32,530 nt of DNA from a virus. Shown here one piece after another: positions 10,282 through 24,797 of the stretch (within the stretch, counting starts at the first letter, position 1; the number at the start of each line of letters is the position of its first letter). Both the position numbers and the translations under genes were made by a program. The stretch covers positions 1 through 32,530 of IMG/VR virus record IMGVR_UViG_3300024520_000312. One strand, written 5' to 3'. Under the pieces are notes generated by a model, which searched no databases, was not told the origin of the DNA, and saw only the letters and a program-made list of their open reading frames with translations.

Positions 10282-11189
10282 TACTGTCCAACCTCCGTGA
10301 TAGTCAGCGACGTCGGGTTCGCGGCACCGAAGAAGTCAGTCGCATCGGCGTTACCGTTGAGACGTGCGGTGGTTGAGCCCCCTCCGCACCTCAAGTAGTA
10401 AGTGACCGCGGTCGTAACGCCGGCGGTTACGGTAGCCTTCCCAGTAATAACGGAAGCTTCTTTGGCCGTACCGGAGGTATGGACGGCGCTGATAATCGCG
10501 GTCGAACTTGCTGTCGCGCTTCGGGTGTCGTGAATCGATACCACCGTTGAAGCCGCTGCCGTGGCGTTAGACACCAGTGCAGTGAACTCCAGAATCAATG
10601 TATTGTTGGCATTCGAAGGGGTAATGGATGCGGTTGAGGACGCGACTACGGACCCTTCCGTACCGAGGGGGATCGTCCCGTCGATGGGGACCGCGCTGGT
10701 AAACGCTTGCCCTGAAATAACTCGGCTGTGAACAACTTGTTTAACTCCGACCGTGTCGTGGCTGTCCTTGATGAAGAAGTTAGATCCATCGCAGACAACC
10801 GTAACGGCCTGCCCGCTGCCGGTCAGCGTTATGGTGCTGGCGCCGTTAATCGTCTCGGAGCCGACGGTATTGATGAAGACTTTGTTCGCTGCGACTGACT
10901 TCTGAATACCAACAACCCAGCCCGATCCGCCAGCGGCGGCAGTCACTAGTGTTAGAGATTTGTCGCCTCCGGTGGAGTCGAAGCGCATGAACTTTTTCAG
11001 ATCGACATCCGCCAACGTCGTACTGGCGACGCTGATAGTCGCACTCGTTAGCCAACGGCCAGCTTTACCGACGTTTTTCTTAATCCCCCGGAGATGATTA
11101 TCTAAAGTAGCGCCAACGACATCGGTCCCTGCCGGGGTATTACTCGCCGCCGTAGCAGCGTTTAAGCTAACTAGGTCTGTCGTCGGCAT
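10281..11189 (-). CDS. Tail-fibre-like beta-rich protein
   Basis: The 302-aa product is rich in Ser, Thr, Ala and Val with alternating hydrophobic residues. The middle (about 85-140: KVFINTVGSETINGAS, TLTGSGQAVTVVCDGSNFFI) fits the beta-repeat found in many phage fibres, and the end (NPTSLTITEVGQ) is a strand pattern typical of jelly-roll fibre tips. The N terminus (NHLRGIKKNVGKAGRW) may mediate attachment. It probably contacts the host surface or decorates the tail. Family-level assignment is by pattern only. Confidence 0.6.
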   Translation of the reverse strand: MPTTDLVSLNAATAASNTPAGTDVVGATLDNHLRGIKKNVGKAGRWLTSATISVASTTLADVDLKKFMRFDSTGGDKSLTLVTAAAGGSGWVVGIQKSVAANKVFINTVGSETINGASTITLTGSGQAVTVVCDGSNFFIKDSHDTVGVKQVVHSRVISGQAFTSAVPIDGTIPLGTEGSVVASSTASITPSNANNTLILEFTALVSNATAAASTVVSIHDTRSATASSTAIISAVHTSGTAKEASVITGKATVTAGVTTAVTYYLRCGGGSTTARLNGNADATDFFGAANPTSLTITEVGQ

Positions 11190-11743
11190 TACGCTATCCC
11201 CGGCACACTAGTTTGCTGGTGAATTGCTCCGGGGAGCTGACTGAGGCCACCGCCCTGTGCGCCTAAGAACGCGAGCATATCCGGCGTAATTTGGCCTTGG
11301 TAGCCCGGAGGCGCTCCCGCCCGACCTTGGCCAGCCGCTTCCGCCAGCGAGGCGTAGTTCGGATTTCCGAGGGGTGCTGCCGAAAAACCGCCCGGGGCTG
11401 CCTGATTAGAAGCTTGTCCACCGCCACCTCCTAGCCCTGAAGTGAATAAATCGGTCCCAATTTCTCCTAAGGGGCTCCCAAGGAAATCTAACCCGCTATT
11501 GATACCCGGTCCAAATAGCCGACCCGGAGCGAGCGCCATCATACCCCCTAACCCCAGTTGGCCGGCGGCTGAACCAGCAATCGGCAGCGCTGCGCCACCC
11601 GCGCCGGCACCGGCTGCACTGATAGCACCCAGCTCCCCCGCTAAGCCCCCACCGGCGCCAGCCGCGCCCAAGGCGGGGAACATAAAGGGGGCGGCGAAAG
11701 CTCCTGCGGTCAAAGCCAGTGGTAATGCGGCTGATTTGCCCAT
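11189..11743 (-). CDS. Gly/Ala-rich hydrophobic internal protein
   Basis: The 184-aa product is dominated by Gly and Ala, with hydrophobic stretches in the first 40 residues (LPLALTAGAFAAPFMFPALG) and again near 70. No catalytic motif is visible. Similar low-complexity hydrophobic proteins sit among podoviral ejection proteins and may enter the membrane during DNA entry. A holin is an alternative, but the Gly-rich composition and position among virion genes make it less likely. Confidence 0.5.
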   Translation of the reverse strand: MGKSAALPLALTAGAFAAPFMFPALGAAGAGGGLAGELGAISAAGAGAGGAALPIAGSAAGQLGLGGMMALAPGRLFGPGINSGLDFLGSPLGEIGTDLFTSGLGGGGGQASNQAAPGGFSAAPLGNPNYASLAEAAGQGRAGAPPGYQGQITPDMLAFLGAQGGGLSQLPGAIHQQTSVPGIA

Positions 11744-13524: not shown

Positions 13525-15033
13525 TTAAACCGTCCCGTCGTGAAGGAATTTGTATACCGTCCCTTCAACGTTCATCTCGACGTACTGGTTACCCGATCCC
13601 GCTGAAGCTGCCCCACCAGTATCTCCATCAGAGTAGACGAAGCGCTCAGCGCCCGATCCCGTCGGAATACTGCCGTTGATGTAGATATGGTTGATGCAAT
13701 CATCAACTGAGCCTGAGAAATTAACTTCGGTGCCACTAGTTGCCGGATTGACTCGGCCAAGGAATATAGAGCTTTGGCAGTCCTGAGCGTTCACAAATGC
13801 TTCGGTTAACACGCCCGCGCCCGAAGTGTGGAGCATGACAAGGCAGCCGCGGAGGAAGCGGAAATCAAGATGTCGTGTTGTCGCTGCGGTGCCTTCGGCG
13901 CGGCAATTGATCATCATGCCGTTAATCGCGATAAACGAATCTTGCCGAACTCTCCAGGTATCTGCCCCGGGATTGTGGGTATACAATTCTCCCCCGGTGA
14001 TGTCGGCGTAACGCACATCCCCATTCTTATCGCCATCGACGCGTGTCGTCCCACCATTGAGCGACGAACCTGCAAAACCCATCGGACAGAGTTGCGAATA
14101 AAAATCGACGTGGCTTTGCCAGCCCGTAAGGAACATTCCGGCCGCTATGCCTTGGACCGCAAGCTGGTAATCCCCTCGGGTGTTGTGCTCCGTAGTGATA
14201 TCTCTCCAGAGTCCGCCTTTATAACCGACGACTAGATCTTCATCGGCGATTACCGTCCCCCAATTAGTAGCCGTCGTGGCCTGCCCGACGATCGCAACCC
14301 CTCGGAAAATCGTCCCGTCCGCACTCGCTCTCGACTGAATGTCCTTTCCATCTTCAAAGACCGGCGTCAATTTACTGATCGTGATGCTGGCGCTGGCCGC
14401 TTCAGTGGCTAAGATGCCAGGGTTCGTCGCCTCATTAACCGTGATGACGGTGGTCGACGGCGAGCCGTTGACGGTCACCACTTTGTGATCGTTGGCAGTT
14501 CCGCCGCGCACGAGCAAGATGTCGTTATCCGAGAAAACGGAAAAGTCGACCGCGCCGGCTGTGGTCAATGTCGATTGCGCTACGGTAATGTCAGTCGCAA
14601 CGACCTCAGTGCTTTTAGCAATGTTAGGTCTGATTTGCGTTGGCCACGATCCTTCGGTCGGCTGCGCCGATAAGTTCGATCCAATGATCGCCACACCTTT
14701 AGGAAATATCGTCGAGCTGGTTACGTAATCCCCCGGCGGTAGAAAGACTCTGGTATGCGGGCCGGTATCAAACGCCGCATCAATTGCCGCTTGGATCGCT
14801 GCGGTGTCGTCAGTAACGCCGTCTCCCGTTGCCCCGAAGTCATCTTGAGCGTTAACAATTCCGTAGGGGAATATCGCAAGGTTGTTAACTCGGTTCGTAA
14901 TGTCAGTGAGGTAATCGGTCAGTGCCCGACGGACGTGGGGGTCAATTCCTTCAGCGGGAAGGAAAATTTCTTGTAAACGCGGCCCACCCCGGCGCACTCG
15001 GTAATCAGTAAAGAGGCTTTGAGTAGTCGCCAT
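13525..15033 (-). CDS. Tailspike with pectate-lyase-like beta-helix
   Basis: The 502-aa product has an N-terminal adaptor part (residues 1-55) with RRALTDYLTDITNRVNNL, followed by VNAQDDFGATGDGVTDDTAA at about 61-80. That segment is the standard entry into the Pectate_lyase_3 beta-helix of phage tailspikes. The body is Gly/Ser/Thr/Asn-rich, as expected for a beta-helix, and the end may trimerise. Tailspikes bind and often cut host surface polysaccharide. I cannot identify catalytic residues or the sugar. Confidence 0.85.
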   Translation of the reverse strand: MATTQSLFTDYRVRRGGPRLQEIFLPAEGIDPHVRRALTDYLTDITNRVNNLAIFPYGIVNAQDDFGATGDGVTDDTAAIQAAIDAAFDTGPHTRVFLPPGDYVTSSTIFPKGVAIIGSNLSAQPTEGSWPTQIRPNIAKSTEVVATDITVAQSTLTTAGAVDFSVFSDNDILLVRGGTANDHKVVTVNGSPSTTVITVNEATNPGILATEAASASITISKLTPVFEDGKDIQSRASADGTIFRGVAIVGQATTATNWGTVIADEDLVVGYKGGLWRDITTEHNTRGDYQLAVQGIAAGMFLTGWQSHVDFYSQLCPMGFAGSSLNGGTTRVDGDKNGDVRYADITGGELYTHNPGADTWRVRQDSFIAINGMMINCRAEGTAATTRHLDFRFLRGCLVMLHTSGAGVLTEAFVNAQDCQSSIFLGRVNPATSGTEVNFSGSVDDCINHIYINGSIPTGSGAERFVYSDGDTGGAASAGSGNQYVEMNVEGTVYKFLHDGTV

Positions 15034-16562
15034 TACTCTTCACTGTCGATCTGTGCGCGGTAATCGATGCCTAGTAGCTCCATCTCTCCCACGTACTCTT
15101 GCTTAAACTTCTGCCAACGTGCGGCATGGACGCGATCAAACCCACCCCGGAAAAGAGACGCTATACCGTTAAGCGTGGTCTCGTCCCCTCCGTGAACATC
15201 TGAATAGATGTATTGCTGGAGCCCTATCGTGGGGGCCGTCTTGAATCGTGGGCGGATACGATCGACTACCGTAATCTTGTCGTCCGTCCCGATGTTCCAG
15301 GTTGTTAGCCGGCCAATCCCAGGGTTCCCGTTAACAAACCTGAGCCGGTTCGACCCAAAGGTATCTTCGACAACCGCCCATACCGGAGTGCCGGTCGTAG
15401 GCACCCAATCGTCGTAAGACGAAGCGGGTAAGTCGTCATACGCCGTCGCCGCGTAGAGCGTATTCAGTCCGTCATAAGTTACCGAGGTGGGTCGGTATTC
15501 AAAGACGGCTTGAACATCTAAGGGGAACCCACCACCACCGCCCTGAGCCCAGCGATCTGACCGATAATTGTAGGCGACGTACCGGTCTAAGGTTGCATCG
15601 GCGCCGGAAGGGAAGTACCAAATGACCCGGAACTCTTGCCGGTCATGGTAGCCGATCATCTTATCGGCTTCGGCGATGTTCAGATTCTCAAAGAACCATT
15701 TCGCTACCCGGTTTGTTCCGATAGGGATCGGCCGCGTACCGTCGTAGAGGTACGCGTTATCGAACCCCCAGAAGAGGTGCGCAGTCTCGATGCTGACAAC
15801 GGAGAAGGGTCCCCAGGTGCCCAAGCCATCCCCTGGAATCGCCCGAAACCGCCAAACCTCGGGGACGCCGACGTACTGGCCCAAGAACATCGATTGCTGT
15901 TTGTACGCGACGAGGTTCGATCCCAAGCGCTTGGCCGCTGTGATCTCTCCTGGGTAGTCGGTCAATCGCCCCGAAGTGGATTGGGTCGCGATGCTTGTCG
16001 TCCAATCGCTGACGTTACCCGCCGCCGAGCACAACCAGCGGTCGGGCGCATCCCCGTAAATGGGGCCGGTCAGATCTGAATCGTCGATGTTGAACGCAAC
16101 CGCGAAGTCCAGCACGGTCTCGACGATGCGCGCTTTGAACATCCCACTTGAAACTGACATCGAAGTAAACGACGCCGTAGCCGTCGAAGTTCGTTGAATT
16201 TTATCGCCTTTTTGAGCAGCGAGGATGATGTCTCCGTACTGAGCGAAGGTCCATTGAGCTGCGCTATTAGCGGAGTACGTCCCGCCGCCATTCTTAAAGT
16301 TTGTCCAAGTTGTCGACGTCAACTTATAAATCGTAGAGGTCGTTCCCTTAGTAGCGACATAAATCTCATTCGTACCGTCGAGCTTCGTAACGGAAGCCCC
16401 CGAAGCTGCGGTCGAAGCGATGACGCTAAAATCCGAATCAACATTAGAAGGGATCGTTTTGACGCCATTTAGCGTGGGGAGTAGCGCGTTACAGTCCGTG
16501 AGCACACCCGGCTCCGAAGGATCGGCATCGGGAGCGAAGCCTTTAATCGGTTGGTAAGGCAT
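15033..16562 (-). CDS. Packaged-DNA stabilisation / tail hub protein (P22 gp10-like)
   Basis: The 509-aa product begins MPYQPIKGFAPDADPSEPGV, a start I associate with the podoviral stabilisation protein. The rest alternates beta strands with repeated turn motifs (SVTKLDGTNEIYVATKG, AQYGDIILAAQKGDKI, NNAYLYDGT-like elements), as in a beta-propeller. In P22 this protein closes the head and joins the portal-adaptor to the spike. Its place between the adaptor/CBM genes and the tailspike agrees. Its stop and the next start overlap by one base. Confidence 0.75.
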   Translation of the reverse strand: MPYQPIKGFAPDADPSEPGVLTDCNALLPTLNGVKTIPSNVDSDFSVIASTAASGASVTKLDGTNEIYVATKGTTSTIYKLTSTTWTNFKNGGGTYSANSAAQWTFAQYGDIILAAQKGDKIQRTSTATASFTSMSVSSGMFKARIVETVLDFAVAFNIDDSDLTGPIYGDAPDRWLCSAAGNVSDWTTSIATQSTSGRLTDYPGEITAAKRLGSNLVAYKQQSMFLGQYVGVPEVWRFRAIPGDGLGTWGPFSVVSIETAHLFWGFDNAYLYDGTRPIPIGTNRVAKWFFENLNIAEADKMIGYHDRQEFRVIWYFPSGADATLDRYVAYNYRSDRWAQGGGGGFPLDVQAVFEYRPTSVTYDGLNTLYAATAYDDLPASSYDDWVPTTGTPVWAVVEDTFGSNRLRFVNGNPGIGRLTTWNIGTDDKITVVDRIRPRFKTAPTIGLQQYIYSDVHGGDETTLNGIASLFRGGFDRVHAARWQKFKQEYVGEMELLGIDYRAQIDSEE

Positions 16563-16563
16563 A

Positions 16564-17358
16564 TCAGGAACTCTTTCCGAAATCGTTAAGGCGGCTTAAT
16601 GCCTTAGCACGCAAGTTCGTTAAATGAGCCATTTCCTGAGCATAGTTCTCGTGGTCAAACTCATCGGTTCGGTTTTCGTTCGTATACCGATCAAATTCTG
16701 ATTCTAAATACTTAATCTCTATGTCGATAAGTTCAATTTTATTTCGGATCTGAATAAGCGATTCATCCCCAGTAACCGAAACCTCGAACGTCGGCCCCTG
16801 GTTCCGGCGAGCGCGCCCTCGGAATTTTGTATCCCTTTCTGTTCTCCCACGCCGCGGCGCTGGCGGACGCTTCCTCCCACCGTAGGAAGTTCGCCCTCGC
16901 CCCCCGGGCTCACCGCCGCCAAGTCCCGCGGTCGCTACGACCGGGTCGGGGCCTAATAGTGAGAAGTTGTCGAACTCTGAGGTCAGCGTATCGGTTGCAA
17001 CGCCTACGGAGAATTCAATTCTGAGCAGCGCGTCCCCAGTGACGGTAAAAGTATCGTTGACTGAGCCGTCAATCTCTTCAAACGACGAAGAGTAGACCGT
17101 CGACGTTGTCACTCCAACGACGTCGATATTCCAAGAGCCCGCAGTGCCAATAAACCCATCGGCGGTGAACGTGTACTGGCTGCCGGAAACAACGACGATG
17201 TTCTGGTCGTTTTGCCCAACCGCCTCTTCACCGCCTCCGACGTTGGTCATCACCACATGCCCCGTTGACTGGGTGATGGTCCCCGTCCCGGTGAACATCT
17301 GCCATCCCGTGACGTCGGCATCGAACGTCCGATTGATGAGGATGAGTTCGACGGCCAT
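16564..17358 (-). CDS. Carbohydrate-binding-module-like protein with basic linker and coiled coil
   Basis: Residues 1-135 look like a CBM_4_9-type beta-sandwich (INRTFDADVTGWQMFTG at the start, FDNFSLLGPDP at the end). Residues 140-190 form an Arg/Gly-rich linker (GGRGRTSYGGRKRPPAPRR). Residues 200-264 form a charged coiled coil (IRNKIELIDIEIKYLESEF). The same three-part plan appears in the gene at 28772..29581. The head may bind sugars or decorate the virion and the tail may anchor or multimerise. This is inference from composition. Confidence 0.6.
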   Translation of the reverse strand: MAVELILINRTFDADVTGWQMFTGTGTITQSTGHVVMTNVGGGEEAVGQNDQNIVVVSGSQYTFTADGFIGTAGSWNIDVVGVTTSTVYSSSFEEIDGSVNDTFTVTGDALLRIEFSVGVATDTLTSEFDNFSLLGPDPVVATAGLGGGEPGGRGRTSYGGRKRPPAPRRGRTERDTKFRGRARRNQGPTFEVSVTGDESLIQIRNKIELIDIEIKYLESEFDRYTNENRTDEFDHENYAQEMAHLTNLRAKALSRLNDFGKSS

Positions 17359-18002
17359 TAGAACTTCGTCGGTAAGACTCGGTGGCTGGACACTTTGAAG
17401 ACCGTCTCACGGATTAGCTCTCCGTACACTCGCTCCGCTTCTTGAGAAAAATAATTTGCCAGGTTGGGGTTACGCAGCTCATCTCGAAAGATGGTGGCTT
17501 TAGCACGAAGCCGAATCATCTCTTCACCGTCCGTCATCCACTTGTTCGTCGCACCCGTGGACGCGCTTAAGCTAACTTCATCCAGTTTGAACAGCCCCGC
17601 CCAACGCATACCGTAAGCATCATTGGGCGGAGGATAGAGCCTGACCTCATTAGAATGAATCGCAAACATCTCCGGATATCCGTAATACTGACCAGAATCG
17701 ATACTCTCAATTCGATGCCAAGTAACGTGGATGATGGGGTAATCGCGAGTGCCGATTATCATTCGAATGGAATCTAGGCTCAGAATATTAGGGGCAGAGG
17801 TTACGGAAAGCGTGACCGCGGTCGTGCTGGCAACAGTTGTCTTGAGCGCTCCTTGGAACTCATTCCAAGCGAACCGCCGACGTTCGAAGTACCCAATTGC
17901 TCCGATAACCGCCTTGCCCACGGCCGAAGCGGAAGCAGAGATCTCGCCTCGCTTCACTTCTTTGGAAACTCGAACCTTCATTGTTCCGAAGTCACTCAAC
18001 GC
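17358..18002 (-). CDS. Head-tail adaptor (head-completion) protein
   Basis: I prefer the TTG start at 18002: GAGGAGG lies 8 bases upstream and overlaps the stop of the zinc-finger ORF. A longer open frame reaches 18143 but overlaps that ORF. ATG 17984 is another option. From the TTG the product has 214 aa, with FERRRFAWNEFQ, YPIIHVTWHRIESID, RLYPPPNDAYGMRWAG and a helical end (MIRLRAKATIFRDELRNPN). This layout fits the podoviral ring adaptor that binds the portal. Assignment is by pattern and gene order. Confidence 0.65.
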   Translation of the reverse strand, partial: ALSDFGTMKVRVSKEVKRGEISASASAVGKAVIGAIGYFERRRFAWNEFQGALKTTVASTTAVTLSVTSAPNILSLDSIRMIIGTRDYPIIHVTWHRIESIDSGQYYGYPEMFAIHSNEVRLYPPPNDAYGMRWAGLFKLDEVSLSASTGATNKWMTDGEEMIRLRAKATIFRDELRNPNLANYFSQEAERVYGELIRETVFKVSSHRVLPTKF

Positions 18003-18012
18003 CCTATCCTCC

Positions 18013-18348
18013 TCACCACTTTTTCCGGGAGCGGTGACCCGTTGATAATCTCCCCCGGTACTCAGGTACCCCTTCAGGATAATAGTCGTCGGGGACCTGC
18101 TTATCGCAATACTTCTCGTGCATCGCCTTACCCCTTCCGACATATTTTAGACAATGTTTGCAAACTCCTATGGGAACTTCCTTATTAAGAGGGGGGACTG
18201 CCGATACGACGCATGGATTCGAGGACCTGTCTTCCTCTTTCGTTAAGCGAATAACGGGCCTTGGAATCCGGTTTAGTTCCAATTTTTTTATCCGATAAGC
18301 GTCTCGTCTGCGCGGCACTTTGATTTCCCTTTTCGTTAAGAAGGTCAT
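18013..18348 (-). CDS. C2HC zinc-finger small protein, start uncertain
   Basis: The convincing part is the end: GVCKHCLKYVGRGKAMHEKY followed by Cys gives C-x2-C-x11-H-x4-C, a zinc-finger pattern. The only ATG giving the full 111 aa is at 18348 and would overlap the glycosyltransferase gene by 164 bases. No ATG or GTG, and no supported TTG, lies between 18185 and the finger. Thus either the long overlap is real or the finger is made by coupling or a non-standard start. Product DDYYPEGVPEYRG follows the finger. Function is unknown. Confidence 0.4.
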   Translation of the reverse strand: MTFLTKREIKVPRRRDAYRIKKLELNRIPRPVIRLTKEEDRSSNPCVVSAVPPLNKEVPIGVCKHCLKYVGRGKAMHEKYCDKQVPDDYYPEGVPEYRGRLSTGHRSRKKW

Positions 18349-19003
18349 CCAGCATTAAACGCCAATCGTCCGCATAATCACAGCAGAAGTAGTCGTCCCA
18401 CCAGGGGCCTCCTAAAGTGTAATGGACGAGTTTAGCCTTTGAATTATAAGGATATTCCCCTACTAACCAGTTCCATACCGGAGGTAGATCCCCGATCTGA
18501 CCCTCGCTGTCGAGCCATTTGAACTGATGAAGCTCCAAACCAGAAGCGGAGTTGACGTATTCAGGAGTTAGTTTATAGCATCGGCCAGTGTTCATGAGCA
18601 TGAGCGAAGACCAGTTCTTTTTCTCGTACTTCGTCTGCTTATTACCGAGCATCTTAGTTTTAGACATCGGCGTGTACTCGTGCTTGACCACCATGACCGC
18701 GTAATCGCTGTTCCGCATCTCGTAGAGTTCGTTGAGGTCAGCCCGCGCCAGCATGTCGGTGTCCATAAAGATCGCCCACCCCGTGTAATTGCAAAGGTAG
18801 GGGACCAAGAAACGGGTCAGGGAGAACTCTGTCGAGTGGAGCTTCTCTCTTGGGCGGGTGTGGATCTCTTCAAGCTGGTTCCGCTTGATGGGAGTAATCG
18901 AGATTGGCGAGCTAGCGTACTTCTGAATCGAATGACTGAGCACGTGATAGGCACTCGATTCGTTCGGGTCGTACCCCACAAAAACTCGGATTGGATTTTT
19001 CAT
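18185..19003 (-). CDS. DxD glycosyltransferase (GT-A fold)
   Basis: The ATG at 19003 follows AAGGTTGAAATA and lies just after the stop of the radical SAM gene; the longer frame from 19054 would overlap that gene. The 272-aa product starts IRVFVGYDPNESSAYHVLSH, a first GT-A strand, and has AIFMDTDMLARADLNELYE, where DTD is the metal/nucleotide-sugar motif. Later VHYTLGGPWWDDYF resembles the C-terminal part of GT8-like enzymes. It should transfer a sugar from a nucleotide donor. The acceptor could be a virion protein, host glycan or small molecule. The C-terminal tail (RYSLNERGRQVLESMRR) overlaps the zinc-finger ORF. Confidence 0.8.
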   Translation of the reverse strand: MKNPIRVFVGYDPNESSAYHVLSHSIQKYASSPISITPIKRNQLEEIHTRPREKLHSTEFSLTRFLVPYLCNYTGWAIFMDTDMLARADLNELYEMRNSDYAVMVVKHEYTPMSKTKMLGNKQTKYEKKNWSSLMLMNTGRCYKLTPEYVNSASGLELHQFKWLDSEGQIGDLPPVWNWLVGEYPYNSKAKLVHYTLGGPWWDDYFCCDYADDWRLMLDDLLNEKGNQSAAQTRRLSDKKIGTKPDSKARYSLNERGRQVLESMRRIGSPPS

Positions 19004-19007
19004 TATT

Positions 19008-19964
19008 TCAACCTTGGTAAGCGACACAATTTTCGCAAACAGTATCGGAAACATCTTTGTTTAGGTGCGCTTGCCGAAGCTCGGTGAACGCTTCTGAATT
19101 CCAAGCATCCATGAAGCTCATCGTGTTTAAGTCTCCGATGTCAAAGGTGTCGGAAGCTCCAAAACAACAAACAGATAAATGTCCATCGGCCCGAACGTGG
19201 CCTTCAGTAAAGGCGCTCCAACAAGGTAAAGGCTCTCGCAAGGCTCCGATACGCCCCTGGTTCCCGGCAATGGGCCTATAGCCGAGTTCCTCTTCTCGTT
19301 GAGTAGCGAAGGAGCCCATAGAATAGAGGGGGAGCCAGTAGTGCTCATCGACATAGGGAAATACCCTTTCTCGAAGTAGCGCTTCCATCTTCTTTTGTTG
19401 CTCACCGTCGAAGCGAATAGACGAAGCATAAATGCCGCAATTAAAATCACCGCGGTCACGGATCGCTTTCGCCCACTTGAGGTTCTCAAGCGCCTTATTA
19501 AACCACCGGGGCGCTACCCCCATCACTTCAGTAAATTGTTCGGCGTCGTATGCGTTAATCGAAAACTTAAGGGAGTCGAGCCCCGCTTCTAAACAAGCTT
19601 CGATTCGATGGGGCGGTGCGATTGATCCGTTTGTCGTGAGAAAGACGTAAGGGAATCCCAAATCCTTCTTACACCAGCGGATACAACTCTCAAGTAAGCC
19701 CGCGTTCATGAAAGACTCCCCAAGGAAGAAGACCCCAATCTCTTCCACCCCAGCTTCCCACATTTCACCGGTAATCCGTTTGAACAAACTGAAGTCCATA
19801 TCTTGCTTCGGCTGCTCGTCACGCATCCGCAGGGCGCAAAACCCGCAGCGGTAATTGCACCGGGGGCTACATTCGATTTTAACGGACTTCGGAGCGGGTG
19901 GGATAGGGGAAAGATGGGTCTCAGGGATCTTGGTAACCGCGTCAATGCGATCAGTAATATTCAT
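19008..19964 (-). CDS. Radical SAM enzyme with SPASM-type C terminus
   Basis: Start ATG 19964 overlaps the methyltransferase stop (ATGA) and has GAGG upstream. The 318-aa product carries CNYRCGFC, with C36, C40 and C43 binding the radical 4Fe-4S cluster. It has FFLGESF and TTNGS as expected for SAM binding. The C-terminal part shows a SPASM-like cysteine set: PCWSAF, GHLSVCCFGA, DIGDLNTMSFMDAW and VCENC. Such enzymes modify peptides or sugars by radical chemistry. Here it sits between a methyltransferase and a glycosyltransferase, so glycan or protein modification is likely. The substrate is not known. Confidence 0.85.
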   Translation of the reverse strand: MNITDRIDAVTKIPETHLSPIPPAPKSVKIECSPRCNYRCGFCALRMRDEQPKQDMDFSLFKRITGEMWEAGVEEIGVFFLGESFMNAGLLESCIRWCKKDLGFPYVFLTTNGSIAPPHRIEACLEAGLDSLKFSINAYDAEQFTEVMGVAPRWFNKALENLKWAKAIRDRGDFNCGIYASSIRFDGEQQKKMEALLRERVFPYVDEHYWLPLYSMGSFATQREEELGYRPIAGNQGRIGALREPLPCWSAFTEGHVRADGHLSVCCFGASDTFDIGDLNTMSFMDAWNSEAFTELRQAHLNKDVSDTVCENCVAYQG

Positions 19965-20461
19965 AGGGGCCTCAAAGTACAAGTAAATTCGCCTTCAGTT
20001 GCTTGGGTTTCAAGCACTTCCCATCGCTCTCTTATTTTAGGCATCCACCATTCCACAGGCTCAACCACGAGGTGGGCGTTCCTCCCGTCAGCTAGCTCCT
20101 TAATAGCGGGGCGCGTCGCAACGTTGAGGATGCACAACCGCTTCGTGAGCCGGCTCAGGTCGTCGAGAACCGTTTCGGTGAACTCCGGCTCGACGTGCTC
20201 CATGACGTCGGTGCATACGACGATGTCCGCTGGGGCGGGAGGCTCAATGTACTTCTCAAGGGCGGGATCGAACATCTTGATTTCGAAAGGAAGGTGCAAG
20301 TTCAGTTCGGCCTTTCCGCAGCCGTAATCGAGAACGTCGTTAGTTTCTAGTTGAGAGCAAAAGCTCATCACGATGGGTGCCCATCGCGAAGAGTGCTTGC
20401 CGTAGTCCGCTCGGTCGCGGTGGAGCTGCGCGTTCAGCGCTCGATATTCATCGGAGATCAT
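19961..20461 (-). CDS. Class I SAM-dependent methyltransferase
   Basis: The 166-aa product shows the Rossmann methyltransferase core: DVLDYGCGKAELNL (motif I, about 42-55), IKMFDPAL (end of strand 2 with acidic residue), DIVVCTDVMEHVEP (motif IV region) and LCILNVATRP. The N terminus (SDEYRALNAQLHRDRADYG) is the form found in stand-alone metagenomic phage methyltransferases. There is no DNA-methylase catalytic motif such as DPPY or PCQ, so a small-molecule, sugar or protein substrate is more likely. It is coupled to both neighbours by TAATG and ATGA overlaps. Confidence 0.8.
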   Translation of the reverse strand: MISDEYRALNAQLHRDRADYGKHSSRWAPIVMSFCSQLETNDVLDYGCGKAELNLHLPFEIKMFDPALEKYIEPPAPADIVVCTDVMEHVEPEFTETVLDDLSRLTKRLCILNVATRPAIKELADGRNAHLVVEPVEWWMPKIRERWEVLETQATEGEFTCTLRPL

Positions 20462-21960
20462 TACGCTGCCTTTCGCTTTCCGTAAAGACTAATTAACTCT
20501 TCTTTAACTTGGTTAAGAACGCTGTCCCAATCGTCGCCGACTTGACGGATCTGACGAACATGATCGCCGTACCAAATCATCTTATCGTCCCCGTAAGAAT
20601 TTGCCCCCGGTACCTGATACCGCCATGCGGGACGAGAGGGCGTGAGCGACCAGCACTGAACGCCGAAGGCGCCGCAGGCGTGGACTAAGGAATTGTTGAC
20701 CGAGATCACCAGGTCCAGGGAATGGATGAGCCCGCCGTAGCATTCGTCGAGATCGTTGACTACATCGAAATCGTGGTTAAGATCGATGCCCGATTCCTTT
20801 TGAAACTCCAGCGCGACGGCGGTGTTCCAACCCATCTTCTCGGCGTTATCGTACTGAAGGCTTATCCAATCTACGTCGACCGAACGAAGCAAGTCTTCCC
20901 AATCTTTAACGGGGACCGACCTCAGATCGTTACGCGTAATAACCGTCCCGCCTTTCCAACTGATCCCAATCTTCGGCCGGCTTCCAAGCTTTTCGAGACG
21001 CGATTTGTGTTTGTCGACCAGATTATCGAAAGGCTTCAAATAAGGCTTGCGGGGGAAATCCTCGTCTGTCTGACGATAATACTGGCACAAGTTGAAGATG
21101 GGTGCTTGGCTGTCAATCTTGTGCCACTGGGGAAACGTAATCTCTTTCCAAGGTACCTTACGCGTTCCGTAAATTGGAAAGTGATCACCAAAGTTGTGGC
21201 GCATGATTGAAACTAATCGCGGGTGAGCTTCGTAGATGATATCGATGTCGTGGCGAGCATCTTCGAAAACTGACGACGCCAAGATCTCATCCCCAACGCC
21301 CTGCTCTCCGTAAACGACAACGGACTGTCCTTTTTCACCTTCCCAGTAAGGGACTTTGCCTTCTTCGACATAGTGTCTAATCTTCCGTTGCTGGCTTGAA
21401 TTGATGGAAAGCGTGAGCCCGCCTCGGTAGCCTTCCCAACCCTCTTTCCAATGTCCCAATTCAAGATGCGCTAATCCTGAATTCCACAAACCATCTCGAT
21501 TTTTTGAGTCTATTTCAAACGCTTTATCGCACCACTCAAGACATTGTTTAGGTTGCCCCATATTGACGAACCCTGTCGCCATATTGTTATAGAATTCCGG
21601 CTGATTAGGATCTAACTCAATAGCTTTCCTAAAGACTTTTTGACCCTCTTCAAAACGTCCTTCGGAATTATAAACCCAACCAAGGTTATTATAGACTGCT
21701 GAAGATAATTCTTTATCGATCGGGGTCCCTTCTAAAGCTGCCCTGTACAGCATTTCAGCCATCCCGTAACGACTTTCGCGCATATAAGTCACGCCTAAAG
21801 AAAACAAAGCCCCGGCGTTATTTCGGTCACTGTCTAAGAAAAATTCAAAGATGCGTCGAGCTGCCCTTACATCTTCAAGGTTAGTGGACTGTAGTAACTC
21901 CGCACCCTTAGCGACCATCTCTTCCGGCGATTCAAAACTCATTTGTTGTTGGTCTTTCAT
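20461..21960 (-). CDS. TPR-glycosyltransferase fusion
   Basis: From ATG 21960 the product has 499 aa; an in-frame TTG at 21972 is an alternative. Four tetratricopeptide repeats fill about residues 50-205 (for example SSAVYNNLGWVYNSEGRFEE and PEFYNNMATGFVNMGQPKQC). The C-terminal part has GEQGVGDEI, KIGISWKGG and DLVISVNNSLVHACGAFGV, the pattern of GT-B glycosyltransferases of the GT9/GT41-like type. It may glycosylate a protein bound by the repeats. It is the first gene after the terminator at 22001 and heads the modification cassette. Confidence 0.8.
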   Translation of the reverse strand: MKDQQQMSFESPEEMVAKGAELLQSTNLEDVRAARRIFEFFLDSDRNNAGALFSLGVTYMRESRYGMAEMLYRAALEGTPIDKELSSAVYNNLGWVYNSEGRFEEGQKVFRKAIELDPNQPEFYNNMATGFVNMGQPKQCLEWCDKAFEIDSKNRDGLWNSGLAHLELGHWKEGWEGYRGGLTLSINSSQQRKIRHYVEEGKVPYWEGEKGQSVVVYGEQGVGDEILASSVFEDARHDIDIIYEAHPRLVSIMRHNFGDHFPIYGTRKVPWKEITFPQWHKIDSQAPIFNLCQYYRQTDEDFPRKPYLKPFDNLVDKHKSRLEKLGSRPKIGISWKGGTVITRNDLRSVPVKDWEDLLRSVDVDWISLQYDNAEKMGWNTAVALEFQKESGIDLNHDFDVVNDLDECYGGLIHSLDLVISVNNSLVHACGAFGVQCWSLTPSRPAWRYQVPGANSYGDDKMIWYGDHVRQIRQVGDDWDSVLNQVKEELISLYGKRKAA

Positions 21961-21986: not shown

Positions 21987-22000
21987 ATTCCCTCCTAAAG

Positions 22001-22025
22001 AAAAGGGGGCGCGGCGCCCCCTTTT
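22001..22025. terminator. Intrinsic terminator, symmetrical
   Basis: On the minus strand AAAAGGGGGCG is followed by a CCG loop and CGCCCCCTTTT. The 7-bp G/C stem is extended by A-T pairs and ends in T4 on both strands. It lies 21 bp after the decoration gene and would end or reduce transcripts of the terminase-capsid group before the modification cassette. No clear promoter is seen between it and 21960, so read-through probably feeds the cassette and tail genes. Confidence 0.85.
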
Positions 22026-22046: not shown

Positions 22047-22484
22047 CTATTGGCCCCCAGCAACCGAGTAAATCACGAGATAACGAATTGCTGTTGAAGC
22101 GGTAACCGTTCCCGATTGAAGAGTTGCGGTTACATACTTAAACGATTCGTTCGTGGTTTCCTCTCGAACGCATTGGTACGGACCATGCTGAACAGATTGA
22201 CCCGCAGTACCCCCAGCTTTGAGCGAAGTCAGCGCACTTGCACTGAGCGACCCCGCTTCAGCTCGGATACCTACGTTGTAAACCTGCGTAGCCGCCCCCG
22301 TAGAATGCTCTTCCACAACAGTGACCAAAGCATCGGGTGGGATTTTTGCAAGTAAAAGCATCCCCGACCCCGAAGCGGAAAGTCCCGCCCCATCGTAGGT
22401 ACCTTGCAAAATATGCGTCCCCGTATGCGGCCGATGTGGCGTAATTGCTGGCAACGCCAAAGAAGCAGTAGCAGTAACAGCCAT
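22047..22484 (-). CDS. Probable head decoration protein
   Basis: The 145-aa product is a small beta-rich, Ala/Ser/Thr-rich protein (TGTHILQGTYDGAGLSASG, AIRYLVIYSVAGGQ at the end). It lies 11 bp after the capsid gene and just before the terminator, the usual place of decoration or head-fibre proteins. No family-specific motif is recognised. Confidence 0.55.
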   Translation of the reverse strand: MAVTATASLALPAITPHRPHTGTHILQGTYDGAGLSASGSGMLLLAKIPPDALVTVVEEHSTGAATQVYNVGIRAEAGSLSASALTSLKAGGTAGQSVQHGPYQCVREETTNESFKYVTATLQSGTVTASTAIRYLVIYSVAGGQ

Positions 22485-22495
22485 CGTACTTCCTC

Positions 22496-23599
22496 CTATG
22501 TTGCGCCAGCTCGGGTGCGGCTAGTTACTTGAACGATCGTACTGTAATCCAGCGAATTAAATACCGCCTTCTTCAGTCCGCCAATCAAGCCTGCCGATAC
22601 GCCTAGCTGATTACGATAGTCGAAAAGTTCCTCGGTCCAGCTCATGCGTGAACTGCCAAACCCTCGACCGAAGCCCATGATTGCCGCTTGTGCGCCACAG
22701 AAAATTGCTCGGCGGGTATTAGTTAGAGTGCCCGCTGTCGCTGATCCCCCATGTGGTACTCGCGTCGATTCATGGATGATAACGTTGTTGTACATCCCCA
22801 ACGCACCCGTAAAGATCGGGTTATTGGAAACTTCACCGCCCTTCATCGCCGACTGCTGAATATGCTGCCACGTCACTCCGGCACCCGCCGATGTCGCGTT
22901 GGTACGCAAATCAAAGGCTTGCTCAGGATGAACGAACAGCACCCAACAATCTTTCCCATCAACTCTAATGGGTCGAATTTGAGGTGTTAACGTCTTTGCT
23001 TGAAGAACGAGATTGTCGATCATTGCCAAACTTAGAATGTTTGATGCGCTGACCGAAGCTGACCCGACTTGAGTTTCGGTAGTGTATCCGCTGGTTATCG
23101 TACCAAGAACGACGTGACCTGTTGTAGGTTCTTCAGCCGCTTGCAAACCCACTCGACCAAGACCCGTAGTCAAACGCGAACCGGCGAGCTGGTTCATAAA
23201 CCAACTATCGATTCGGTCAGCCCACCAATCCTGAAGCCCCATTCTCGCTTCCTCGCGAACGCTGAATGGGATCCGCTGGTCGCTCATCTTCCCGCCGGAA
23301 CGTACGGCGTGTCGGAGTTGGTCGATGAAAACGTCATCAGTAAACGTCGTCAAAGCCTCCTCGTTACCTTCTAAGGTGCCATCTCCAATGATACCGTCGC
23401 CGGTGAGCAGCATGCGTAACGTGCAGCGCACTCGATCACCGGGGCCTTTTTGCGTATCCGTAACGATTTGGCACAAAGAGCCTGAGCTTTCGCCCATGAA
23501 CTTATAAGCCCAGGTGGACTTTAGTGCCTCACGAAATAGCTTTCTTGACCACAGCTTGACGGCTTCCGGAGCGTTGACACCATAACTTGTGTTAGCCAT
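22496..23599 (-). CDS. Major capsid protein, N4-gp56 / DUF4043 type
   Basis: The 367-aa product starts MANTSYGVNAPEAVKLWSRK and has KGPGDRVRCTLRMLLTGDGI and the long helix following QLRHAVRSGGKMSDQRI. CWVLFVHPEQAFDLR and YNNVIIHESTRVPHG follow. These are the segments of the N4-gp56 family of HK97-fold coat proteins. ATG 23599 has AAGGGG upstream. It follows scaffold and two very small ORFs, the normal place for the coat gene. Confidence 0.9.
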   Translation of the reverse strand: MANTSYGVNAPEAVKLWSRKLFREALKSTWAYKFMGESSGSLCQIVTDTQKGPGDRVRCTLRMLLTGDGIIGDGTLEGNEEALTTFTDDVFIDQLRHAVRSGGKMSDQRIPFSVREEARMGLQDWWADRIDSWFMNQLAGSRLTTGLGRVGLQAAEEPTTGHVVLGTITSGYTTETQVGSASVSASNILSLAMIDNLVLQAKTLTPQIRPIRVDGKDCWVLFVHPEQAFDLRTNATSAGAGVTWQHIQQSAMKGGEVSNNPIFTGALGMYNNVIIHESTRVPHGGSATAGTLTNTRRAIFCGAQAAIMGFGRGFGSSRMSWTEELFDYRNQLGVSAGLIGGLKKAVFNSLDYSTIVQVTSRTRAGAT

Positions 23600-23746: not shown

Positions 23747-23917
23747 TCAAAAACACGGACAGCCGGCCAGGTACTCTTGAATATCATCGAATGCTGTTGC
23801 GGAATGACCAAGTTCAGGCTTATCGGGCCTGACGCTCTTTACCACACACTCTAATTCTGAGCCTCCTCCCTGACCGGTGTCCGGACTCAAATCATTGCCA
23901 CAACTCTTTCCAGCCAT
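23747..23917 (-). CDS. Possible small ORF, 56 aa, overlapping scaffold end
   Basis: From ATG 23917, which overlaps the scaffold end by 26 bases, the frame gives MAGKSCGNDLSPDTG, then GGGSELECVVKSVRPDKPEL and a helix TAFDDIQEYLAG with a CPCF end. The ribosome site (GCGGGG) is modest; a GTG farther down after GGAGGAGG is an alternative start. Its stop TGA overlaps the ribosome site of the next small ORF. No family recognised. Confidence 0.35.
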   Translation of the reverse strand: MAGKSCGNDLSPDTGQGGGSELECVVKSVRPDKPELGHSATAFDDIQEYLAGCPCF

Positions 23918-24797
23918 CCCCGCTGGTCGCTTTGTCGAAATCGGAGTCCGACATCGAAGCGAGGTCATCGAACGAAAGCGATTCACGCGGTGTGGAGCCG
24001 CGCGAACCCATTGATTCAGATCGCTCAATATTTTCGTTCAATTCCTTCAGATTAACATTTCCCGGCGCTGCCGCGGGAGCCGCCCCCTTATACCCGCGTT
24101 CACGAGCTACCTTATAGAACATTTCAACGGGATCGACCCCGTTGTTGGTTGCTGTAATCGCGTAGTTGAGCGCTTCCGAATCTAGGATCTGGCGTGCTTG
24201 GGGCTCTTGGTACCCTAGATTCTTCAGCTCATTGAACCTGCTATTTCTCAGAAATTCAGTAGCTTGGTAATAATCAGGGGTCTTAGCCGCAAAGGTCGCT
24301 TCCTTTGTCTGGAATTCCCGCTCGAACATTACGATCTTCTCTTGGTTCTCGCGTTGCTGCCTTTGCTGAGTGGTCTCCGCTTGGAGCCGCTGAGCCGTTT
24401 CCTCCTGCATCCTTAGCCGACCGTCGAGATTCGATGCCGGATCTTCGTCGAACGAAGGGATCTCCGGCTCAGCCGCTTTAGGTTGGGCCGTTTCCTGCTG
24501 AAGCCTCGCTTGGAACTCGTTGAATCGCTCTTCCATCCGCCGGACTTGCTGCTCCATGTCCTTGCGGCGCTCACGCTCCTCATGCAGCGCTTGGTGCGGC
24601 ACCATATCGACTTTAGGTTCAGCAGGAGAAATCCCCTCCGAGCCCTGAGCATCGGGAGGAGAGAGCGAAGATCCGTCCTCGGGGACAATCGAAGACGGGC
24701 TCGGCTCAGGGGCCGGAGGAGAACTGTCGTCCGGTGCCGGCTGTACCGGCTCCGACATTTCGCTTTCAGTCAAATCAAAGCTTGGTTCGTCTGCCAT
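23892..24797 (-). CDS. Scaffolding protein, putative
   Basis: The 301-aa product starts with an acidic, Pro/Ser-rich disordered segment (residues 1-70: QPAPDDSSPPAPEPSPSS). A long Glu/Gln/Arg coiled coil follows, about residues 70-165 (EERERRKDMEQQVRRMEER, QRLQAETTQQRQQRENQEK). A short mixed C terminus ends DKATSGDGWKELWQ. This composition and the place between portal and capsid are typical of phage scaffold proteins. The start overlaps the portal stop as TAATG. Confidence 0.8.
   Translation of the reverse strand: MADEPSFDLTESEMSEPVQPAPDDSSPPAPEPSPSSIVPEDGSSLSPPDAQGSEGISPAEPKVDMVPHQALHEERERRKDMEQQVRRMEERFNEFQARLQQETAQPKAAEPEIPSFDEDPASNLDGRLRMQEETAQRLQAETTQQRQQRENQEKIVMFEREFQTKEATFAAKTPDYYQATEFLRNSRFNELKNLGYQEPQARQILDSEALNYAITATNNGVDPVEMFYKVARERGYKGAAPAAAPGNVNLKELNENIERSESMGSRGSTPRESLSFDDLASMSDSDFDKATSGDGWKELWQ

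Follow-up and report, generated by a model that had tools for sequence, protein, structure and literature searches.

A putative virion glycosylation cassette with a radical SAM/SPASM gene in the structural operon of an uncultured podovirus-like phage

The FlmG enzyme of Caulobacter crescentus binds flagellin through its TPR part and O-glycosylates it, so that a self-assembling surface protein is modified in the cytosol (PMC7591256). FlmG consists of an N-terminal TPR region and a C-terminal GT-B domain (PMC7591256), and the GT41 enzymes OGT and SPINDLY also combine TPR with GT-B. Among phages, mycobacteriophages such as Che8 encode glycosyltransferases and carry glycan on the capsid (Freeman, 2023, cited in PMC11256854). 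In Maravista, which is related to Che8, the glycosyltransferase genes are near the 3' end of the genome (PMC11256854). Neither a TPR-containing glycosyltransferase nor a radical SAM enzyme is known to us to be described for Che8-type systems.

The locus described here lies in a 32,530-nt stretch of DNA from an uncultured phage (IMG/VR record IMGVR_UViG_3300024520_000312), referred to below as the window. Its glycosyltransferase genes, unlike those of Maravista, are located between capsid and tail genes. Manatee Spring podovirus MW202512 carries TPR, methyltransferase and glycosyltransferase genes in the same slot, differing from the window by an inserted endonuclease gene and by having no radical SAM gene. 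To our knowledge, there is no functional work on the MW202512 cassette. A literature search found no published description of a TPR-containing glycosyltransferase (TPR-GT), a methyltransferase (MT), a radical SAM/SPASM enzyme (rSAM) and a second glycosyltransferase (GT) in combination. Virion glycosylation as such is already known; this architecture and the rSAM partner look like a new form of it, and the rSAM step is both the new element and the least certain one.

A nucleotide search of named phages returned no match to the window; in IMG/VR, contig IMGVR_UViG_3300024518_003939 matches it. The phage is podovirus-like, as judged from its capsid and portal proteins, which match GP4-type and PHROG portal families. 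The major capsid protein (22496..23599, minus strand) matches PF13252 (Pfam E 1e-68), and among solved structures it has a homologue in the Ralstonia phage GP4 capsid protein (E 9e-50). It is followed by the gene for a capsid cement protein, the predicted glycan acceptor (22047..22484, minus strand), and the downstream boundary is set by a SU10_adaptor-like tail adaptor (17358..17984, minus strand), whose match to PF24175 (E 2e-5) falls short of the Pfam cut-off. Between the capsid genes and the adaptor gene are five consecutive minus-strand ORFs, encoding TPR-GT (20461..21960), MT (19961..20461), rSAM (19008..19964), a GT8-like GT (18185..19003) and a zinc-knuckle protein (18013..18318). An earlier sequence-only reading had all five genes joined by overlaps of one to four bases. 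This holds for TPR-GT/MT (1 base) and MT/rSAM (4 bases), whereas rSAM and GT are separated by a 4-base gap and the zinc-knuckle ORF overlaps the 3' end of the GT gene by about 134 bases. The same reading placed the set between capsid and tail genes behind a terminator, which is borne out by the flanking genes and by a strong minus-strand hairpin with a T-rich tail at about 21997..22023, between the cement gene and the cassette. The hairpin was read from the sequence and then folded; it is absent from the list of a simple terminator scan, and a hairpin with a T-rich tail is present at the same site in most relatives checked.

The four enzyme genes, which belong to the structural (late) operon, probably constitute a cassette for virion glycosylation that is FlmG/OGT-like in design. 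In the cytosol, TPR-GT would bind a capsid protein through its TPR domain and O-link the first sugar with its GT-B domain. A second sugar is probably contributed by the GT8-like enzyme, and MT would cap or methylate it. In the weakest step of the scheme, rSAM probably carries out one difficult radical reaction, either on the glycan or on the nucleotide sugar. The acceptor would most likely be the cement protein encoded just upstream, so that hundreds of glycan copies could be displayed on the outer capsid, and the terminator may keep enzyme levels below those of the structural proteins. The cassette in the window does not include genes for donor-sugar biosynthesis, so a host sugar must serve. 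As with FlmG, modification of a self-assembling surface protein in the cytosol is proposed; the likeness drawn here is one of layout. Unlike FlmG, the phage enzyme is encoded in a capsid operon and not in a flagellar context, with additional GT8-like, MT and rSAM genes in the same operon. Phage-encoded glycosyltransferases are shared with Che8-type virion glycosylation as cited in PMC11256854, the capsid glycan here being predicted from the genes.

TPR-GT matches the TPR family PF00515 (E 3e-17), and a TPR match was found in 38 of 39 relatives. The AlphaFold2 model (pLDDT 92.5) gave SPINDLY, XcOGT and human OGT as best solved folds (Foldseek, E 1e-12 to 1e-8, probability 1.00), whereas whole-chain TM-scores with SPINDLY and OGT are just 0.2-0.4 and identities 9-16%. 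In the GT-B domain, positions GEQGxGD and H427 are intact. Unlike OGT and SPINDLY, the C-terminal domain in the window has no match in Pfam, GT41 models included; one relative matches GT9, and no Pfam name was retained for this domain. The architecture matches that of protein O-glycosyltransferases, and sugar transfer to a protein is predicted from the modelled fold.

MT is a class I SAM-dependent methyltransferase with matches to Methyltransf_23 (E 7e-6, just below the Pfam cut-off) and phrog_24759 (E 7e-24), and its DYGCGK motif is intact. A homologue of MT fused to an MptE-like/Maf-type domain was seen in another locus (L053:7658-9004). GT, of the GT-A (DxD) type, matches Glyco_transf_8 (PF01501; 25.2 bits against a cut-off of 24.3) and phrog_28018 (E 6e-46), with a DxD motif that is intact and conserved in relatives. 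rSAM contains the Radical_SAM (PF04055, 6e-15) and SPASM (PF13186, 2e-11) domains, both above the Pfam cut-off. The cysteines of its CxxxCxxC motif and SPASM domain (C36, C40, C43, C248, C266, C310 and C313) are invariant in 18 relatives. Pfam matches thus agree with the four enzyme families named in the sequence-only reading, MT falling just under the cut-off. Loss of active sites, which that reading had listed as evidence against its proposal, is not seen; the motifs are intact in rSAM, GT, MT and the GT-B domain.

Linkage of the cassette genes is far beyond chance. A search of viral contigs for rSAM yielded 61 usable loci, which were grouped into 42 clusters at 90% identity. Within 7 kb and on the same strand as rSAM, GT was found in 32 of the 42 clusters, TPR in 15 and MT in 13; in 23 clusters the distance from rSAM to GT is at most 300 nt. 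When the capsid protein served as query instead, 41 loci that reach from capsid to adaptor were obtained, in 31 clusters. A TPR-led set occupies 22 of these 31 slots (MT in 20, GT in 20 and rSAM in 5), and the arrangement TPR-MT-GT accounts for 15 of the 22. The remaining nine slots have no cassette and are just 0.4-1.2 kb long; cultured relatives that lack a cassette in the slot are Paracoccus KLEP18-1, Microcystis Mae-JY35 and Rhizobium Y1_10. This all-or-none pattern of insertion, in the stretch from cement to adaptor, indicates that the cassette acts as a unit of which rSAM is an optional member. The genes are therefore not scattered singly among relatives, an outcome that the earlier reading had allowed for, and its exact set of genes proved to be one version of a wider cassette, with rSAM in the minority of slots. 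Endonuclease ORFs, HNH-like by sequence, lie inside the cassettes of MW202512 (L001, 23077-23553) and of L161 (13428-13880) and are possible homing elements.

Unrelated phages, too, have related cassettes in their structural modules. The coat gene of Roseobacter phage CRP-9 is immediately followed by a relative of MT. In Tetraselmis viridis virus S20, the MT family occurs alongside glycosyltransferases, with capsid-side genes on one side and head-closure genes on the other, and in CcrColossus it occurs with related GT genes after a tail gene. Several related cassettes carry GDP-mannose 4,6-dehydratase and DegT aminotransferase genes. Two of these longer cassettes (L062:3033-9939, with a GT29-like gene, and L008:4980-10642) suggest that some phages make amino-deoxy sugars.

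All four enzyme families of the cassette also adjoin flagellin in a bacterial chromosome. In an Uliginosibacterium MAG (L257:3662-13308), fliS-fliD-flaG-fliC is followed by genes for TPR, rSAM, KpsF, GT and MT and then by a second TPR gene; flagellin and FlaG were named by Pfam, and the fliS- and fliD-like ORFs were read from the sequence. This island resembles the cassette in the window in having the four families together, in this case beside fliC, and differs in being chromosomal and in its additional KpsF and second TPR protein. In Azoarcus (L255:7983-11826), rSAM is followed by a TPR protein and then by a type IV pilin gene. These two loci would also suit enzymes that act during infection on flagella or on the surface glycans of the host, remodelling them so as to exclude superinfection. 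Such a role is unlikely, since the genes sit in the structural operon beside the capsid in several unrelated phage types and since no membrane glycosyltransferase partner, GtrA-like or otherwise, is among the Pfam hits in the cassette; likewise, no membrane flippase or membrane glucosyltransferase of the O-antigen Gtr type was hit. Glycosyltransferases and radical SAM enzymes occur in some phage DNA modification routes, and the cassette might accordingly hypermodify phage DNA with a sugar, a radical step and a methyl group. This is less probable still: the TPR/OGT-like architecture points to protein acceptors, the chromosomal counterpart adjoins flagellin, and none of the window genes scanned was seen to encode a base-hydroxymethylating enzyme. 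Of the options in the sequence-only reading, attachment of a sugar to a virion protein, with a protein acceptor for the TPR domain, is thus best supported (by fold, slot insertion, recurrence among structural genes of unrelated phages and the flagellin counterpart), while action on the host surface or on a peptide is less likely. Structural linkage of phage-encoded glycosyltransferases, as in virion glycosylation systems, is seen in 22 of 31 capsid slots.

Within a virion glycosylation cassette, the cement protein is most likely the acceptor, judging from its sequence type, which tracks cassette presence while those of adaptor and portal do not. A profile of 20 relatives of the 22047..22484 protein matches the GP4 cement protein gp1 (8h89_J, E 5.6e-5), which is present in 540 copies and forms trimers on the outer capsid surface (PMC9698820). 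By BLAST linkage, all 20 scorable cement versions beside cassettes fall into a single group (the corrected ORF of a 21st matching the same profile), and 9 of 11 versions from phages that lack the cassette form a separate group. When sequence type was compared with cassette status at matched capsid distance, none of 1000 permutations was as extreme for cement, against 712 for adaptor and 578 for portal. In an exploratory comparison (n=17), cement and the GT-B domain also covary to a degree that capsid distance does not account for (partial correlation 0.51, p 0.001). In the same exploratory set (n=17), covariation is weak with MT (0.27) and absent with GT and adaptor. The TPR domain shows none either (0.06, n=17), although acceptor binding would predict it. 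From the capsid tree, the cassette state may have changed as many as three times, with just one of these changes forced by well-supported branches, and the link between cement and cassette could reflect shared ancestry or co-transfer.

Another virion protein, such as the major capsid protein, tail spike or fibre, may be glycosylated in place of cement. This possibility, which we rate well below even, gains from the slot also adjoining adaptor and tail genes, from the related genes of CcrColossus coming after a tail protein, and from published mycobacteriophage virion glycans being on capsid proteins, as cited in PMC11256854. Of the proteins tested, cement alone separates cleanly with cassette status; for those encoded at 23892-24797 and 15033-16562 the signal was no more than weak (49 and 45 of 1000 permutations, respectively). 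A short N-terminal stretch of the protein encoded at 13525-15033 matches several tail-spike and tail-fibre PHROG families, and this is likely a receptor-binding or depolymerase protein. With cement as the favoured acceptor, many uncultured podoviruses are predicted to have sugar-coated capsids, and both the coat protein and the transferase involved can be named.

The AlphaFold2 model of rSAM (pLDDT 84) matches viperin, SuiB, DesII, MoaA, BlsE and BtrN about equally, so the fold is not diagnostic of the reaction. Compared over the same pairs of loci, rSAM sequences have diverged far less than those of its partners, with median identities of 63% against 42% for GT, 64% against 33% for TPR and 62% against 43% for MT. 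A small invariant substrate fits this better than a variable protein does; another explanation could be that the gene moved recently between phages and bacteria. It is tentatively proposed, as a reading rather more doubtful than otherwise, that rSAM alters the sugar placed on the cement protein by the TPR-guided glycosyltransferase, and that the same four-enzyme module serves in bacterial flagellin glycosylation. If rSAM does act on the glycan, this would be a new protein-glycosylation chemistry common to phage capsids and bacterial flagella. No described role for rSAM in phage or flagellin glycosylation was found in the literature.

The chemistry of rSAM is not restricted to glycosylation clusters. 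Its chromosomal homologues (58-71% identical) are mostly outside such clusters, and rSAM is rare in genomes even of close families (7 of 250 and 13 of 300 in family- and order-level searches). Neighbours of the chromosomal homologues, named by reading the sequence without a domain scan, include UspA (20 of 64), cbb3 oxidase (11), HemN (9), NrdD (6) and FNR/Crp regulators. Examples lie at around 8 kb in L208, L214, L226, L264, L268 and L287, where NrdD/NrdG and UbiU/V-like genes also occur. A quick tree did not divide cleanly into glycosylation and respiratory clades, phage and bacterial sequences being interleaved. These respiratory or anaerobic neighbourhoods leave a sugar-modifying role with no more than moderate weight, and rSAM may instead be a passenger, a gene of that type that shares the cargo slot but has nothing to do with the glycan. 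That alternative, which would leave the rest of the glycosylation scheme in place, is possible though not favoured. The absence of rSAM from 17 of 22 capsid cassettes is in its favour; its frequent same-strand proximity to GT across different capsid types and the 4-base MT/rSAM overlap in the window argue against it. A RiPP-like system, in which rSAM would mature a small peptide, is suggested by the frequency of SPASM domains in peptide maturases and by SuiB among the fold matches. It is very improbable, the least favoured of the readings considered, as no obvious precursor or conserved small ORF accompanies rSAM among the neighbour families of the 42 clusters (families built from ORFs of at least 70 aa), and as the zinc-knuckle ORF is present without the cassette.

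The sequence-only reading had counted this ORF as a member of the set. The ORF is genuine, with the same position and motif in four relatives (L161, L164, L166 and L203); it also occurs at 11067-11228 of Rhizobium phage L004, which has no cassette, and this rules it out as a cassette member and makes it a neighbour. By comparison of VPRRRDAYRI in the window with MRRRDAYRI in L161, its start is most likely the GTG at 18318, and the RRR near the start is a feature of this conserved protein.
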